Source: Pseudothermotoga hypogea DSM 11164 = NBRC 106472
GTDB taxonomy: Bacteria; Thermotogota; Thermotogae; Thermotogales; DSM-5069
Assembly (NCBI RefSeq): GCF_000816145.1
Contig: NZ_CP007141.1
Span: 1,550,001-1,614,000 of the forward strand
DNA length: 64,000 bases
Reading direction: 5' to 3'
Below the pieces are notes generated by a model. The model was not told the DNA's origin. It made no database searches and was given only the letters and a program-made list of their open reading frames with translations. Shown here piece after piece: positions 25,092-30,916 of this stretch; positions within the stretch are counted from its first letter, which is position 1, and each line of letters opens with the position of its first letter. A program made the position numbers and the translations under genes.

Positions 25092-25859
25092 TTACCATCG
25101 TAGAAACTTTGAGACAAACAACAGAGTGATCATCAGCAAGGGCAAAGAATCGGGCCAGGACAGTTTCAAAGGTTTATAGAGTGTCGGTTTGCTGGAAATA
25201 TTGTACTTTCTCATCTCCAGAGATACAGACAGAGATTCTGCACGCTTCAAACTGAAGAAAAGCAGAGGTACAACTATGGACTCGAGAGACTTCAGCGCTC
25301 GCACGGGGTTCTTCGTCCGCCAAGTTTGGCCACGCAACGTCTGAGCCGTCCTGATCCTTTCCATCTGTTCAAAGAGGATTGGTATCTGCGTGAGGGCGAG
25401 CATGATCATCAGCGAGATTTTTCGCGCAACCTTTTTCATACCCAGGCCTCTGAGGATGACTTCGAAAGCCCTCGCGAGCATCACGTTAGAGGTGGTTCTG
25501 AAGATGAGTGAGGTTGCCAGAATGCTGAAACTCACAAGAAGAACTGATCTCGACGCTCGAACCAGCGAGCCCGTAAGGTTTGCACTGGCAAACGGGATAA
25601 TTTGTACAAAAAAGATGATCAGCAAAAACCATTTGAATTTCAACAGATCGAACAGAAAGATCCTGAGGCCAACTCTCGATAGAAGCATCAGGATCGACAA
25701 TGTTGAGAAGAGTGTGATATAATTAAAAGTTGAACGTGAAGTGAAGAAAAGCGCTAATGCCACGATGAGATACACGATCTTGAGCACGGGATTGATCGCG
25801 TGGACAAGCGAGTCTTTGTAGGTGTATTTGCCGAAGCCTTCCAAGGGATCACCACGCAA
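25092..25859 (-). CDS. ecfT: Energy-coupling factor transporter transmembrane protein EcfT
   Basis: EcfT is the membrane scaffold linking an S component to the two EcfA ATPases in vitamin ECF transporters. 255 aa from TTG 25859; TTG 25844 is a good alternative (GGTGAT upstream). Seen: KDSLVHAINPVLKIVYLIVAL at the start (the usual DSxxHxLxPxxKL), several hydrophobic helices, and the coupling motif region SVSLEMRKYNISS corresponding to the Ala-Arg-Gly box. No ecfA or S-component gene lies nearby. It heads the nucleoside importer operon, an unusual partner. Confidence 0.88.
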   Translation of the reverse strand: MRGDPLEGFGKYTYKDSLVHAINPVLKIVYLIVALALFFTSRSTFNYITLFSTLSILMLLSRVGLRIFLFDLLKFKWFLLIIFFVQIIPFASANLTGSLVRASRSVLLVSFSILATSLIFRTTSNVMLARAFEVILRGLGMKKVARKISLMIMLALTQIPILFEQMERIRTAQTLRGQTWRTKNPVRALKSLESIVVPLLFFSLKRAESLSVSLEMRKYNISSKPTLYKPLKLSWPDSLPLLMITLLFVSKFLRW

Positions 25860-25863
25860 CCAT

Positions 25864-25890
25864 TAAAGTTTTCTTTCACATGGACGATTA
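25864..25890 (+). promoter_or_regulatory. Sigma-28 (FliA) type promoter of the flgM operon
   Basis: TAAAGTTT at 25864-25871 is identical to the sigma-28 -35 consensus; after exactly 11 bases comes GACGATTA (25883-25890), matching 6 of 8 positions of GCCGATAA. A start near 25897 would give a short leader with the GAGGAGGG ribosome site of flgM. Predicted from sequence only. Confidence 0.8.
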
Positions 25891-25892
25891 TA
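25887..25892 (-). promoter_or_regulatory. -10 hexamer of the divergent ecfT operon promoter
   Basis: A perfect TATAAT on the minus strand (25892-25887) lies about 28 bases before the ecfT TTG at 25859 and overlaps the sigma-28 -10 on the other strand. No convincing -35 is seen. It is the best candidate start for the ecfT-bmp-nup-glycohydrolase operon. Confidence 0.5.
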
Positions 25893-25912
25893 CAAGACGA
25901 GGAGGGAAATTC

Positions 25913-26173
25913 ATGCAGGAGATCAATGGCGTCGGAAGGCCGTTTCAGATTCAGCAACCAGCCCCTCCGGAGAAGACCGAGAGAAAGCCCCGCACCGAAG
26001 GCGAGTCTTTGAACGTTGGGGAGAAAACGAACATAGTCGAGCTGCTGAAAGAAGCGAAGGAAACTCCAGAAGTACGTGAAAAACTCGTAGAACAGCTCAA
26101 AATCGCGATAGAACAAGGCACCTACACGATCGATCCGGGGAGGATAGCAAAGCACATAATGAGGCAGTTGTGA
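25913..26173 (+). CDS. flgM: Anti-sigma-28 factor FlgM
   Basis: FlgM binds sigma-28 (FliA) until the hook is complete, then is exported. 86 aa from ATG 25913 (GAGGAGGG upstream; an in-frame start at 25880 would overlap the promoter). The N-terminus is Pro- and charge-rich and likely disordered; the C-terminal sigma-binding helices are recognisable as VREKLVEQLKIAIEQGTY followed by IDPGRIAKHIM. Next to flgN, flgK and flgL, as in many bacteria, and preceded by a sigma-28 promoter, which implies the usual feedback loop. Confidence 0.93.
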   Translation: MQEINGVGRPFQIQQPAPPEKTERKPRTEGESLNVGEKTNIVELLKEAKETPEVREKLVEQLKIAIEQGTYTIDPGRIAKHIMRQL

Positions 26174-26177
26174 TTCG

Positions 26178-26636
26178 ATGGAACGGTTGCTTTCGATCCT
26201 CGAAAAAGAGGAACGTGTTTTGTTGCAGATTGAGGACGAGCTCGCTCGCTGCGAGCATTTTTTGTTGAAAAAGGACGTTTCGCTCGTCGAGAAGGGACTC
26301 GTTCGACTCGAAGATCTCCTTGAGGAGTTCTCACGCCTTGAGAACAGTCGCAGGGACTTCTTCGAAGCGATGAAACGAGAACTTGGGTTGGGCGAGTCAG
26401 CGAGTTTTTTCGATTTCTGCAAACAAGATTCCGCCCTGATGGAAAGGTTGTTCAAACTGGTCGATCGCCTCAAGGACCTTTCGCACAGGATCGAAAGGAT
26501 TCGTAGCCTCTCAGAATTCCATCAGGCGTATTTCGATTTTTTGAAAAAACTTTTGAACCCTCCTTCTCTTCCCACCTACGATTCCAAAGCCCGCCTCGGC
26601 TCACAGGAAGGAAGGAATTTCAAGGCCGAAGGTTGA
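26178..26636 (+). CDS. flgN: FlgN-like export chaperone for hook-associated proteins
   Basis: 152 aa, almost entirely helical and charged, with heptad-like patterns (LLSILEKEERVLLQIEDELA and later LMERLFKLVDRLKDLSHRIE). FlgN binds FlgK and FlgL before export. Sequence identity in this family is low, so the call rests on size, helical character, and position directly between flgM and flgK. Starts 4 bases after the flgM stop. Confidence 0.8.
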   Translation: MERLLSILEKEERVLLQIEDELARCEHFLLKKDVSLVEKGLVRLEDLLEEFSRLENSRRDFFEAMKRELGLGESASFFDFCKQDSALMERLFKLVDRLKDLSHRIERIRSLSEFHQAYFDFLKKLLNPPSLPTYDSKARLGSQEGRNFKAEG

Positions 26637-26639
26637 TCT

Positions 26640-26647
26640 GCCGATAA
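26640..26647 (+). promoter_or_regulatory. Possible internal sigma-28 -10 element before flgK
   Basis: GCCGATAA, an exact match to the sigma-28 -10 consensus, lies in the 60-bp gap between flgN and flgK, 49 bases before the flgK ATG. The corresponding -35 position (26621-26628, CAAGGCCG) matches TAAAGTTT poorly, so this may be a weak or accessory promoter. Confidence 0.4.
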
Positions 26648-26696: not shown

Positions 26697-29285
26697 ATGG
26701 CCAATTTGAGCCTCTTTGGAAGTTTGAACACCGCACTGCTTGGTGTTTACACGCACAAGCTGGCCATGAACGTTGTGGGACACAACATAGCGAATGCGAA
26801 CACCGATGGCTATTCGCGTCAACGTCCAGTGATCGAGCCGACGCCCCCTATACCCCTCACGACGTTGACGCAACCGTCCATACCCCTGATGCTTGGAACC
26901 GGTTCGCAAGTGAGGGACATACAGCGTGTGAGGGACATGTTTTTAGATATCCAGTTTCGTCAGGTCTCGAACAGGTACAACTATTGGAACAGCATCTTTT
27001 CGAACCTTCACTTTTTCGAACAACTCTTGGCAGAACCTGGGCAGAACGGTATAAGAAACTTGTACGACGCGTTCTCGCTCTCCTTCGAAGAGGTGATGAG
27101 TGATCCTGCAAGCGTTGCCGCAAAGAGACAGATCGTGTCCCGTGCCCAAGAGCTCGTCGATGGAATCAAAGACCTCTACTCGAGACTCGAACAGCTCCGT
27201 GAGGACATAAACAAAGAGATCTCACTGTTGGCAGACAAAATAAACCAGCTCGTTGCAAGGCTCAGACAGATCAACGAACAGGTACGTATCGCGATCGCGC
27301 TCAAGACAACGCCGAACGATATGTTAGACGAGAGGGACAGAATCTTGGACGAGCTTGCCAACTACGGGAACATAAACTACAGAGAAACGGAAGATGGCCA
27401 AGTGATGCTCATGTTCGGTGATCAAGTCGTGCTCTCAGGCTCGGTCCAAAACCCCGTGAGGGCCCTGGAAAGGCCTTACGGTAAGGGCTTCTACGAACTG
27501 TTCGTGGGTCAGACGAAGCTTAATCTCTCTGATGGCAAGCTAAAGGCGCTCATCGATTTGAGAGATTCAATCATAGTCAAGTACATGCTCTATCTGGACG
27601 AGTTTGCGTTGAACTTGACCGATAAGCTGAACCTCATCCACCGTTCGGGATTCGATGCCTCCGGAAAAACGACGAACTTGAACTTCTTCGTTCTCAATCC
27701 GGCGTTGGAAACAACAGATCCTGCCATCTTCAGGATCGCTGGAAACAGGAGGATGCTGTCTGGACCTATTCTTTTTGTCACTGGCATGAACAACCGTACA
27801 GAAGATGAGATAAGAAACACGGTGCTCACACAGGATGGCAAGTTGGTGTTCTTCGATAACAACGATGCAGAAGAGCTCGAAATCAACGCGGGAGATAAAG
27901 TGGATGATCTGCTCTTGAAGAGTTGGCCGAGTTGGTTGAGTTTGAACGTAGGCCAACATCAACCAACGTCTTCTTCCAACGCGTACAGGTTGTACTTCGA
28001 AGGTACAAAGAACCTGAACGATGTTTTGATCATAGACACCAAATCTAACGTTCTGAAGAATCTCGGTTTCGAAACCCAACAGAAAACCTTCGTGACCTTC
28101 GACGATCTTTCGAACTTGGCTCAAGGCACATACACGTTGACCTTCGAAGAAACGCTCCCAGACGGCACGAAGCAGAGCGAGAGTTTGACGTTGACGATCG
28201 ATTCCGCCACGACACTCGTATCGATCAGAGATGAGATCAACACGCAACTGAGCAACATTAGAGCCTTCATCGTTGACGGTGCTCTCGTACTGACTGTCAC
28301 CAGCCAGCTGGAATTCGACTGGAGCAGGGTGCAGATCAAAGACGAGATGGGCTTTCTGACTCAGGTCAGAGCGCAGAACAAGATTTTCGAAGTGCTAAAG
28401 CCATTGCCAACGTTAGAAAACGTCTTCCACGGTTCGACGAACTTCGATCCTTCGCAAGGCTATCAGCTGTTCATCAACAACACACAGATACACATCGATC
28501 CAGCCGTGGACACGCTACAAAGCTTAGTGAAGAAGATCAACGAACTCAGTACTGGATTGATCGCAGACCTCACACCACACAACGCCTTCGTTCTTCGAGC
28601 TGGAAGGAGCTTCGAGTTCGACTTGAGAAGTTTCAACATAACTGGTCCAAAAGGTTTGTTCGAAGCTTTGGGTTTGATAGACACAGATGGCGATCCAGCG
28701 AGTTTCGACGCTGACTGGAACGAGGAATACAGTCTCATCTCTAAGAGCGACGATATCAGCAGTTTGCGCTCGAAACTCAGCGTGAGTGAACTGTTCACAA
28801 TAAACAGAAGAGAGAGAACTGAACCGTTCTATTTCGTTCCCAGCTGGGACGTATCGAGTGTTTTGAAAGCGAACGCCGAAGCACTCGCGGTTGACCTTGG
28901 TAAGGCGCTGTCCAACGACGTTTGGAACGCACTGTCGATACTTCCGATCGGATCGAGCAACGTTGACGCAGTCAGGTACATTCGCGATGCGAAGTACGAG
29001 AAGCTGCTCGCAGACGGCAAGGAGAGTTTCTTCGAATACTTCGGTGGCGTGATCGCCGAGCTGGGAGTCGAGTCGGAAACGGCACAGAAGATGAGGGACA
29101 ACAGTGAAGCTCTGAAGTTGGAGATAGATCAAGAAAGAGAGAGAGTCAAGGGTGTTTCGCTGGACGAAGAGATGGCTAACATGATCAAATACCAACACGC
29201 GTTCGCTGCGGCGGCGCGTGTGATCACGGCCGTCGACGAGATGATCGGCAGAGTGATCGACAAACTCGGTGTGGTGGGAAGGTGA
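26697..29285 (+). CDS. flgK: Flagellar hook-associated protein 1 FlgK
   Basis: FlgK forms the first junction ring between hook and filament. 862 aa, larger than the roughly 550 aa of enteric FlgK. N-terminal rod/hook motif MANLSLFGSLNTALLGVYTHKLAMNVVGHNIANANTDGYSRQ (in part) with the NIANANTDGYSRQ signature at about residues 30-42, a coiled-coil segment (LEQLREDINKEISLLADKIN), a large central insert with Ser/Thr-rich beta domains, and the C-terminal helix SLDEEMANMIKYQHAFAAAARVITAVDEM typical of FlgK. Ribosome site AGGTGATGCG precedes the ATG. Confidence 0.95.
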   Translation: MANLSLFGSLNTALLGVYTHKLAMNVVGHNIANANTDGYSRQRPVIEPTPPIPLTTLTQPSIPLMLGTGSQVRDIQRVRDMFLDIQFRQVSNRYNYWNSIFSNLHFFEQLLAEPGQNGIRNLYDAFSLSFEEVMSDPASVAAKRQIVSRAQELVDGIKDLYSRLEQLREDINKEISLLADKINQLVARLRQINEQVRIAIALKTTPNDMLDERDRILDELANYGNINYRETEDGQVMLMFGDQVVLSGSVQNPVRALERPYGKGFYELFVGQTKLNLSDGKLKALIDLRDSIIVKYMLYLDEFALNLTDKLNLIHRSGFDASGKTTNLNFFVLNPALETTDPAIFRIAGNRRMLSGPILFVTGMNNRTEDEIRNTVLTQDGKLVFFDNNDAEELEINAGDKVDDLLLKSWPSWLSLNVGQHQPTSSSNAYRLYFEGTKNLNDVLIIDTKSNVLKNLGFETQQKTFVTFDDLSNLAQGTYTLTFEETLPDGTKQSESLTLTIDSATTLVSIRDEINTQLSNIRAFIVDGALVLTVTSQLEFDWSRVQIKDEMGFLTQVRAQNKIFEVLKPLPTLENVFHGSTNFDPSQGYQLFINNTQIHIDPAVDTLQSLVKKINELSTGLIADLTPHNAFVLRAGRSFEFDLRSFNITGPKGLFEALGLIDTDGDPASFDADWNEEYSLISKSDDISSLRSKLSVSELFTINRRERTEPFYFVPSWDVSSVLKANAEALAVDLGKALSNDVWNALSILPIGSSNVDAVRYIRDAKYEKLLADGKESFFEYFGGVIAELGVESETAQKMRDNSEALKLEIDQERERVKGVSLDEEMANMIKYQHAFAAAARVITAVDEMIGRVIDKLGVVGR

Positions 29286-29289
29286 TCGT

Positions 29290-30180
29290 ATGAGGATTAC
29301 AGACAGGATGACGAGTGACAGGGTTCTGTACAACATTCAAAAGACCATTACACAGATCGCGAAGTTACACGATGAGATCTCTTCTGGTTCCAAGGTGAGA
29401 TATCCCAGTGACGATGCGGTTCTGGCGACAAGATCGTCAAACCTCGACAGCAGATTGCGCGAACTGCAGCAGTACGAGCGCAACGTGAACTACGTACAGA
29501 ACTTGGTCAAAGGGTACGATACATCAATTCAGCAAGTGAGTGAGCTTTATCAGAGGATCAGAGAGTTGCTCGTCCAAGCGTCAAACGGAACGCTCACCGC
29601 AGATCAGAGAAACGCCATTTCTGAGGAGATCAAGCGTATCAAGCAGCAGCTGATTCAGATCGCGAACACGCAGGTCGGCTCAGACTACATCTTTGCAGGG
29701 CTGGATGGCAGTAAACCTCCGGTGAGCGAAGATGGAGAGATTATGGTGAAGCCAGAGGCGCTGAGGAGCAGAACGACGATGGTGCTGGGTTATCCTTTAG
29801 AGTTCGGAATCAACGTCAAGGATATCTTCGTGACCGACGGGAATCAGAGCGTGTTCAGCTTGATAGACATGACTTTGAAGGCTTTGGAGAGGAACGATCC
29901 AAAATTTCTGAGCGACGTGGCCCTTGCGGGGGTGAACTATCTGGAAAAGTCTGTGTCGGAGAACCTTGCGAAGGTCGGAGCAACACAGAGGATGGTTGAA
30001 GCTGCGGCGAACAGGATCGTTGATCTGAACAACTTCATGACCGAACATTTGTCCAAAGAACGCGATGTGGACATCACCGAAGCGGTCACGGAGCTTTCGA
30101 TGAAACAAGCCGTGCTCAACGCGGCACTCAAATCGGCGGCAAACCTCCTGAGGAGCACGTTGGTCGATTACATCTCTTAG
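29290..30180 (+). CDS. flgL: Flagellar hook-associated protein 3 FlgL
   Basis: FlgL is the second hook-filament junction protein. 296 aa from ATG 29290, behind AAGGTGATCG. Flagellin-like N-terminus (MRITDRMTSDRVLYNIQKT, SSGSKVRYPSDDAV), long helix with NVNYVQNLVKGYDTSIQQVSE, IANTQVGSDYIFAG which is the FlgL signature, and a flagellin-like C-terminal helix ending LLRSTLVDYIS. An upstream in-frame GTG inside flgK is rejected. Four bases after flgK. Confidence 0.95.
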   Translation: MRITDRMTSDRVLYNIQKTITQIAKLHDEISSGSKVRYPSDDAVLATRSSNLDSRLRELQQYERNVNYVQNLVKGYDTSIQQVSELYQRIRELLVQASNGTLTADQRNAISEEIKRIKQQLIQIANTQVGSDYIFAGLDGSKPPVSEDGEIMVKPEALRSRTTMVLGYPLEFGINVKDIFVTDGNQSVFSLIDMTLKALERNDPKFLSDVALAGVNYLEKSVSENLAKVGATQRMVEAAANRIVDLNNFMTEHLSKERDVDITEAVTELSMKQAVLNAALKSAANLLRSTLVDYIS

Positions 30181-30190
30181 GGGTGAGACG

Positions 30191-30658
30191 ATGCTCTGTG
30201 AAACGAAGGTTGGAGAGGTGGAAGTCAGCGAATCGAAGATATTGGTTTTCGAAAGAGGTATCCCGGGTTTTGAACATCTTCGCAAATTCACCATCGTAGA
30301 GTTGGAACAAACCAAACCTTTCCGCTGGCTTGTTTCGCTCGAAGATGCGAACGTGGCCTTGCCCATCGTTAATCCCTGGCTCGTGAGGGTGGACTACTCT
30401 TTCGATTTGAGCGAGGCGGACAGGGAAGAACTCAAGCTCGAAAGTTCCGATGAAATAGAGGTCTGGGTGGTGGTCACGATACCTGCCGGTGTGCCGAGCG
30501 AAGCGAGTGTAAACCTCTTTGCCCCCATTGTGATCAACAAGAGCAGGAATCTGGCAAAACAGGTTCTTCTCGAGGGAAGCGAGTACAAACTCAGGCATAG
30601 AATCAGCGAGGAACTCGAAAGGAGCAATGAGATTCTCAAAAGGATGCAGAAGGAGTGA
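30191..30658 (+). CDS. fliW: Flagellar assembly factor FliW
   Basis: FliW binds flagellin and CsrA, releasing CsrA from its mRNA targets when flagellin is exported. 155 aa. Typical pieces: FERGIPGFEHLRKFTIVE (in part), WLVSLEDANVALPIVNPW, and NLFAPIVINKSRNLAKQVLLEGSEY near the C-terminus. Ribosome site GGGGTGAGACG before ATG 30191. Directly followed by csrA, as in Bacillus and Thermotoga-type genomes. Confidence 0.96.
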   Translation: MLCETKVGEVEVSESKILVFERGIPGFEHLRKFTIVELEQTKPFRWLVSLEDANVALPIVNPWLVRVDYSFDLSEADREELKLESSDEIEVWVVVTIPAGVPSEASVNLFAPIVINKSRNLAKQVLLEGSEYKLRHRISEELERSNEILKRMQKE

Positions 30659-30664
30659 GCTTGC

Positions 30665-30916
30665 ATGCTCGTATTCTCGAGAAAGGTGGGGGAAAGCTTC
30701 ATCATCGGTGACGAGATCGAGGTGGTGGTGCTCAAGATAGAAGGTTCAGAGGTGAAGATAGGTATCTCCGCTCCCAAACATGTTAAAATATACAGGACGG
30801 AGATATACAAAAAGATTGTCGAGGAAAACCTGAGAGCGTCGAGCGTGAGTGTCGATTCGCTGAAGGGGGTCAAAGTGATTGATCAGAATAGACGAGGGAT
30901 TGATCAGACACCTTGA
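30665..30916 (+). CDS. csrA: Carbon storage regulator CsrA
   Basis: CsrA is an RNA-binding dimer that represses translation at GGA motifs. 83 aa: [20 protein letters not shown] with the RNA-binding first strand, [18 protein letters not shown], and a C-terminal helix. The C-terminus extends to [13 protein letters not shown], about ten residues past the usual end, overlapping gatC by 38 bp. Genetic coupling to fliW indicates control of flagellin or hook-protein translation. Confidence 0.96.

Follow-up and report, generated by a model that had tools for sequence, protein, structure and literature searches.

The sequence upstream of flgM contains what is very probably a working sigma-28 (FliA) promoter that would, to judge from its letters and their conservation, drive transcription of an operon consisting of flgM, flgN, flgK, flgL, fliW and csrA (Table 1). 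The E. coli sigma-28 consensus is TAAAGTTT-N11-GCCGATAA (PMC2859248), and the site, which ends 22 nt before the ATG of flgM at 25913, agrees with it at 14 of 16 positions. The first-pass annotation had described a near-consensus promoter at this location, with 8 of 8 matches at -35, an 11-base spacer and 6 of 8 matches at -10, and we find that its letters and coordinates are exact. The site is real and largely a textbook element, and the added value of the present analysis is comparative.

Table 1. Positions of the genes and of the observed, candidate and predicted elements around the flgM promoter.
Feature	Position	Strand	Basis
cbiQ/ecfT-like transporter gene, divergent	25092..25859	-	PF02361, 62.3 bits
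Candidate housekeeping promoter TCGACA-N18-TATAAT with TGA extended -10 (25715-25723)	25694..25723	+	11/12 consensus plus TGn
Sigma-28 -35 element TAAAGTTT	25864..25871	+	8/8 to consensus; conserved in same family
11-nt spacer TCTTTCACATG	25872..25882	+	spacing peak across relatives
Sigma-28 -10 element GACGATTA	25883..25890	+	6/8 to GCCGATAA, CGAT core intact
Candidate cbiQ -10 TATAAT, overlapping the sigma-28 -10 head-on	25887..25892	-	in 9/9 genomes of g1 and g4, not in g3
Predicted transcription start, about 25897	25896..25898	+	promoter geometry only
Shine-Dalgarno AGGAGGG of flgM	25900..25906	+	sequence
flgM, anti-sigma-28 factor, 86 aa	25913..26173	+	PF04316, 46.8 bits vs cut-off 25
flgN, export chaperone	26178..26636	+	PF05130
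Second candidate sigma-28 -10 GCCGATAA, weak -35	26640..26647	+	8/8; flgN-flgK gap, right after flgN stop
flgK, hook-filament junction protein	26697..29285	+	PF22638, PF06429
flgL, flagellin-like hook-filament junction protein	29290..30180	+	PF00669/PF00700
fliW	30191..30658	+	PF02623
csrA	30665..30916	+	PF02599

When both strands of the window (the whole stretch of 64,000 nucleotides analysed here) were scanned at all positions, the flgM site was the top match and the only one to reach 14/16 with an 11-nt spacer. The runners-up at this spacing were one site at 13/16 and seven at 12/16, and spacers of 8 to 14 nt other than 11 gave a maximum of 12/16. The window contains one copy of the pattern TAAAGTTT-N10-12-GNCGAT, which none of 100 shuffles of the window produced, and its N11 form is present as a single copy in the whole 2,165,416-base genome. 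At other places in the genome, copies with a single mismatch coincide with long open frames and were discounted. A looser pattern allowing three mismatches gave approximately 750 matches against approximately 600 in controls and is therefore uninformative. When the 9-mers of the 330 nt ahead of flgM are ranked by conservation across the 10 same-family genomes, the -10 of the flgM site comes first.

The identity of the gene behind the site stood up to examination, in that the gene directly downstream matches the Pfam family PF04316. This match extends over residues 41-83, such that the C-terminal sigma-binding domain is present, and the protein also shows a weak match (E 0.007) to the FlgM of the solved FliA-FlgM entry 9wsf. 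By analogy with its family, it would be expected to bind and inhibit FliA and to be exported through the flagellum. An in-frame ATG at 25880, given as the start of flgM in the list of open reading frames, sits within the promoter and was rejected in favour of the true start at 25913. The gene is first in its cluster, in which successive genes are separated by gaps of 4, 60, 4, 10 and 6 nt. The largest of these was readable in nine same-family genomes, and all nine keep CGATAA followed by TTAGGA before flgK.

A cognate sigma factor is available. The presence of fliA had been proposed as a check on the promoter, and the genome does encode FliA, which scores 243 bits against TIGR02479 (cut-off 189.6) and aligns along its length with the E. 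coli FliA of the solved transcription complexes 6pmi/6pmj (E 6e-42). Region 2 contains LR-DW-PR in both proteins, as the recognition stretch of region 4 does ESRVSQ. More broadly, FlgM homologues were found in 50 of 61 Thermotogae genomes and in 50 of the 54 that have FliA. FliA falls below cut-off in the remaining seven (G005, G028, G030, G032, G039, G056 and G058), none of which has an FlgM match, although G005 is 71% complete and G039 carries a flagellin match. The other five, namely G028, G030, G032 (family f3, genus g11), G056 and G058, show no flagellin, FlgM or FliA match above cut-off and are probably non-flagellated lineages in which the whole system has been lost.

The first-pass annotation regarded the site as direct evidence that the sigma-28 consensus is used in this lineage. 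A single site is insufficient for that purpose, and it is the comparison across Thermotogae which supplies the support. Among 30 relatives, the best match to the E. coli consensus upstream of flgM is spaced by 11 nt in almost all genera, the sites in this comparison having been picked using the consensus itself. We also made an untrained count of TAAA-Nk-CGAT, with k from 8 to 27, in the regions upstream of flgM (n=29), flagellin (n=26) and, as a control, fliA (n=30). At the sigma-28 spacing of k=17 the pattern is present in 11/29 flgM and 22/26 flagellin regions and all other values of k give 0-3, counts which are not independent because many of the genomes compared are close kin. The same k=17 pattern is found upstream of fliA in 0/30 cases. 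A weight matrix built from flgM promoters alone recovers the flagellin promoters, with 62% scoring at least 12 as against 1% of shuffles, and places them about 75 to 125 nt upstream of the start codon in most genera; the conserved blocks in an alignment of the flagellin upstream regions are TAAA and CGAT. Many Thermotogae genera have the -35/11/-10 arrangement ahead of both flgM and flagellin, the -35 of flgM being weak in genera g6 and g8.

Within this genome few genes are preceded by the strict motif. TAAA-N17-CGATWW is present in seven copies, of which only those of flgM and flagellin lie directly upstream of genes, and the remaining five are within long open frames. The flagellin promoter reads TAAAATCC-N11-GCCGATAT. 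The same motif had been anticipated before flagellin and motAB; this was borne out for flagellin and not for motAB, since the scan upstream of motA returned a poor match only. Scans upstream of fliD, cheA/cheW and the chemoreceptor genes of this genome likewise gave no convincing sigma-28 site, and from sequence the strict sigma-28 regulon appears to comprise the flgM operon and flagellin. The genome also has a CheW-domain match that is interrupted by a single TGA (G000:C1:1541275-1541676), possibly a frameshift or a pseudogene.

Two further elements upstream of flgM, which like the conserved CGATAA before flgK had escaped the first-pass annotation, bear on how the operon might be controlled. 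A candidate housekeeping promoter is situated antisense within cbiQ, about 190 nt upstream of flgM, and its -10 region, TGRTAWAAT, is found 196-203 nt from flgM in 10/10 same-family genomes, where it outranks in conservation every other 9-mer of the cbiQ part. With synonymous codons drawn at random, the element would turn up by chance with a probability of 0.02-0.15 in each genome. These values are given genome by genome and not as a product, since the genomes are not independent samples and the frame taken for L060 is doubtful. Amino-acid constraint accounts for part of the conservation, and the case for the distal promoter is therefore moderate. Given such a conserved housekeeping-type promoter upstream, flgM is probably not under sigma-28 alone. 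The second element is a minus-strand TATAAT, kept in nine of the ten genomes, which is probably the -10 of the divergent cbiQ gene. The start of cbiQ is listed at 25859; the TTG at 25844, which follows GGTGAT, is a better candidate.

Each of these elements invites a different reading of the flgM site. The operon might be driven mainly by the housekeeping promoter at 25694-25723, with the sigma-28 site contributing little, and the quality of the distal match, its conservation, and the fact that a TGn element belongs to the T. maritima RpoD motif (PMC3636130) all speak for such an arrangement. We nevertheless consider it unlikely, as it leaves unexplained why TAAA-N17-CGAT, a motif that precedes flagellin as well, is so strictly conserved. 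It could similarly be argued that GATTATACAA is conserved as the reverse-strand TATAAT of cbiQ and that the -10 resembles a sigma-28 element only fortuitously, given that each of the nine genomes of g1 and g4 has TATAAT. Indeed, part of the -10 conservation within the family could be due to this overlap. As a full account, however, it is very improbable: it explains neither TAAAGTTT nor the fixed 11-nt spacing, genus g3 is without TATAAT and yet has GTCGATAA at the right spacing, and the flagellin promoters carry the same motif with no cbiQ overlap. Short motifs do of course arise by chance, and 12/16 sites are scattered across the window, but a site that is unique in the genome, directly before flgM and conserved across genera can scarcely be a coincidence, and we regard this last reading as refuted.

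The likeliest arrangement is a two-promoter operon, in which weak early housekeeping expression is followed by sigma-28-dependent expression with FlgM as negative feedback. From the distal promoter the operon would be expressed early and at a low level. When FliA becomes free, RNA polymerase carrying it would bind TAAAGTTT-N11-GACGATTA and raise expression from the proximal promoter, starting near 25897, a position that is reasonable on promoter geometry and would give a leader of about 16 nt. If FlgM behaves as known members of its family do, it would bind FliA and restrain it until the hook is complete and FlgM has been exported, and the sigma-28 promoter would in this way close a negative feedback loop. 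Such a FlgM-FliA loop is known in Salmonella and Bacillus. A more elaborate scheme, which we put forward only tentatively and think less than an even prospect, has three nested promoters in the family (the cbiQ-antisense extended -10, the sigma-28 promoter sharing its -10 head-on with that of cbiQ, and a second sigma-28 promoter before flgK) together with a strict regulon reduced to the flgM operon and flagellin. Under that scheme, the shared -10 would cause the two polymerases to exclude each other.

The flagellin transcripts display features of their own. In L054 and L087-L114 (L054 being the flagellin at about 1916233-1916750 of G000:C1, minus strand), a 5′ hairpin with a GGGC(G/C)CC cap is conserved in the mRNA leaders and is followed by GGA-bearing hairpins. 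A near-invariant CACANGGAGGTG is found at the ribosome site, and the leaders resemble CsrA targets. Taken with the presence of fliW and csrA in the flgM operon, this makes a FliW-CsrA-flagellin checkpoint likely. In B. subtilis, fliW-csrA lies downstream and flagellin is under CsrA control.

The organisation described here can be compared with several known systems. In E. coli and Salmonella, the upstream flgM promoter is located before flgA. The arrangement here is alike in that a second, non-sigma-28 promoter is likely to lie upstream of flgM; unlike in those species, this upstream promoter is antisense in an unrelated transporter gene, and the same cluster continues with flgK, flgL, fliW and csrA. 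The proximal promoter resembles their class 3 flgM promoter both in its consensus, TAAAGTTT-N11-GCCGATAA (PMC2859248), and in having flgM directly downstream, followed by flgN. The gene order and the position of the promoter are also those of the sigma-D operon of B. subtilis, where flgM-flgN-flgK-flgL are co-transcribed from a promoter before flgM and sigma-D controls late genes including hag (PMC4054197). Sigma-D also controls motAB in B. subtilis (PMC4054197), whereas we found no sigma-28 motif before motA in this genome.

Thermotogae form a deep branch in many bacterial trees. A transcriptome study of T. maritima published in 2013 detected no FliA motif in flagellar units (PMC3636130). In contrast, we find the motif in genus g5, which is probably Thermotoga itself, as TTAAGTTT-N11-CCCGATAA or TCAAATCT-N11-ACCGATAA before flgM and as TAAAATCC-N11-TCCGATTA before flagellin. 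Despite that report, promoters of the classical TAAA-N17-CGAT form precede flgM and flagellin across Thermotogae. A sigma-28 switch with FlgM feedback therefore appears to be used there, and exact sites are now available for start mapping.
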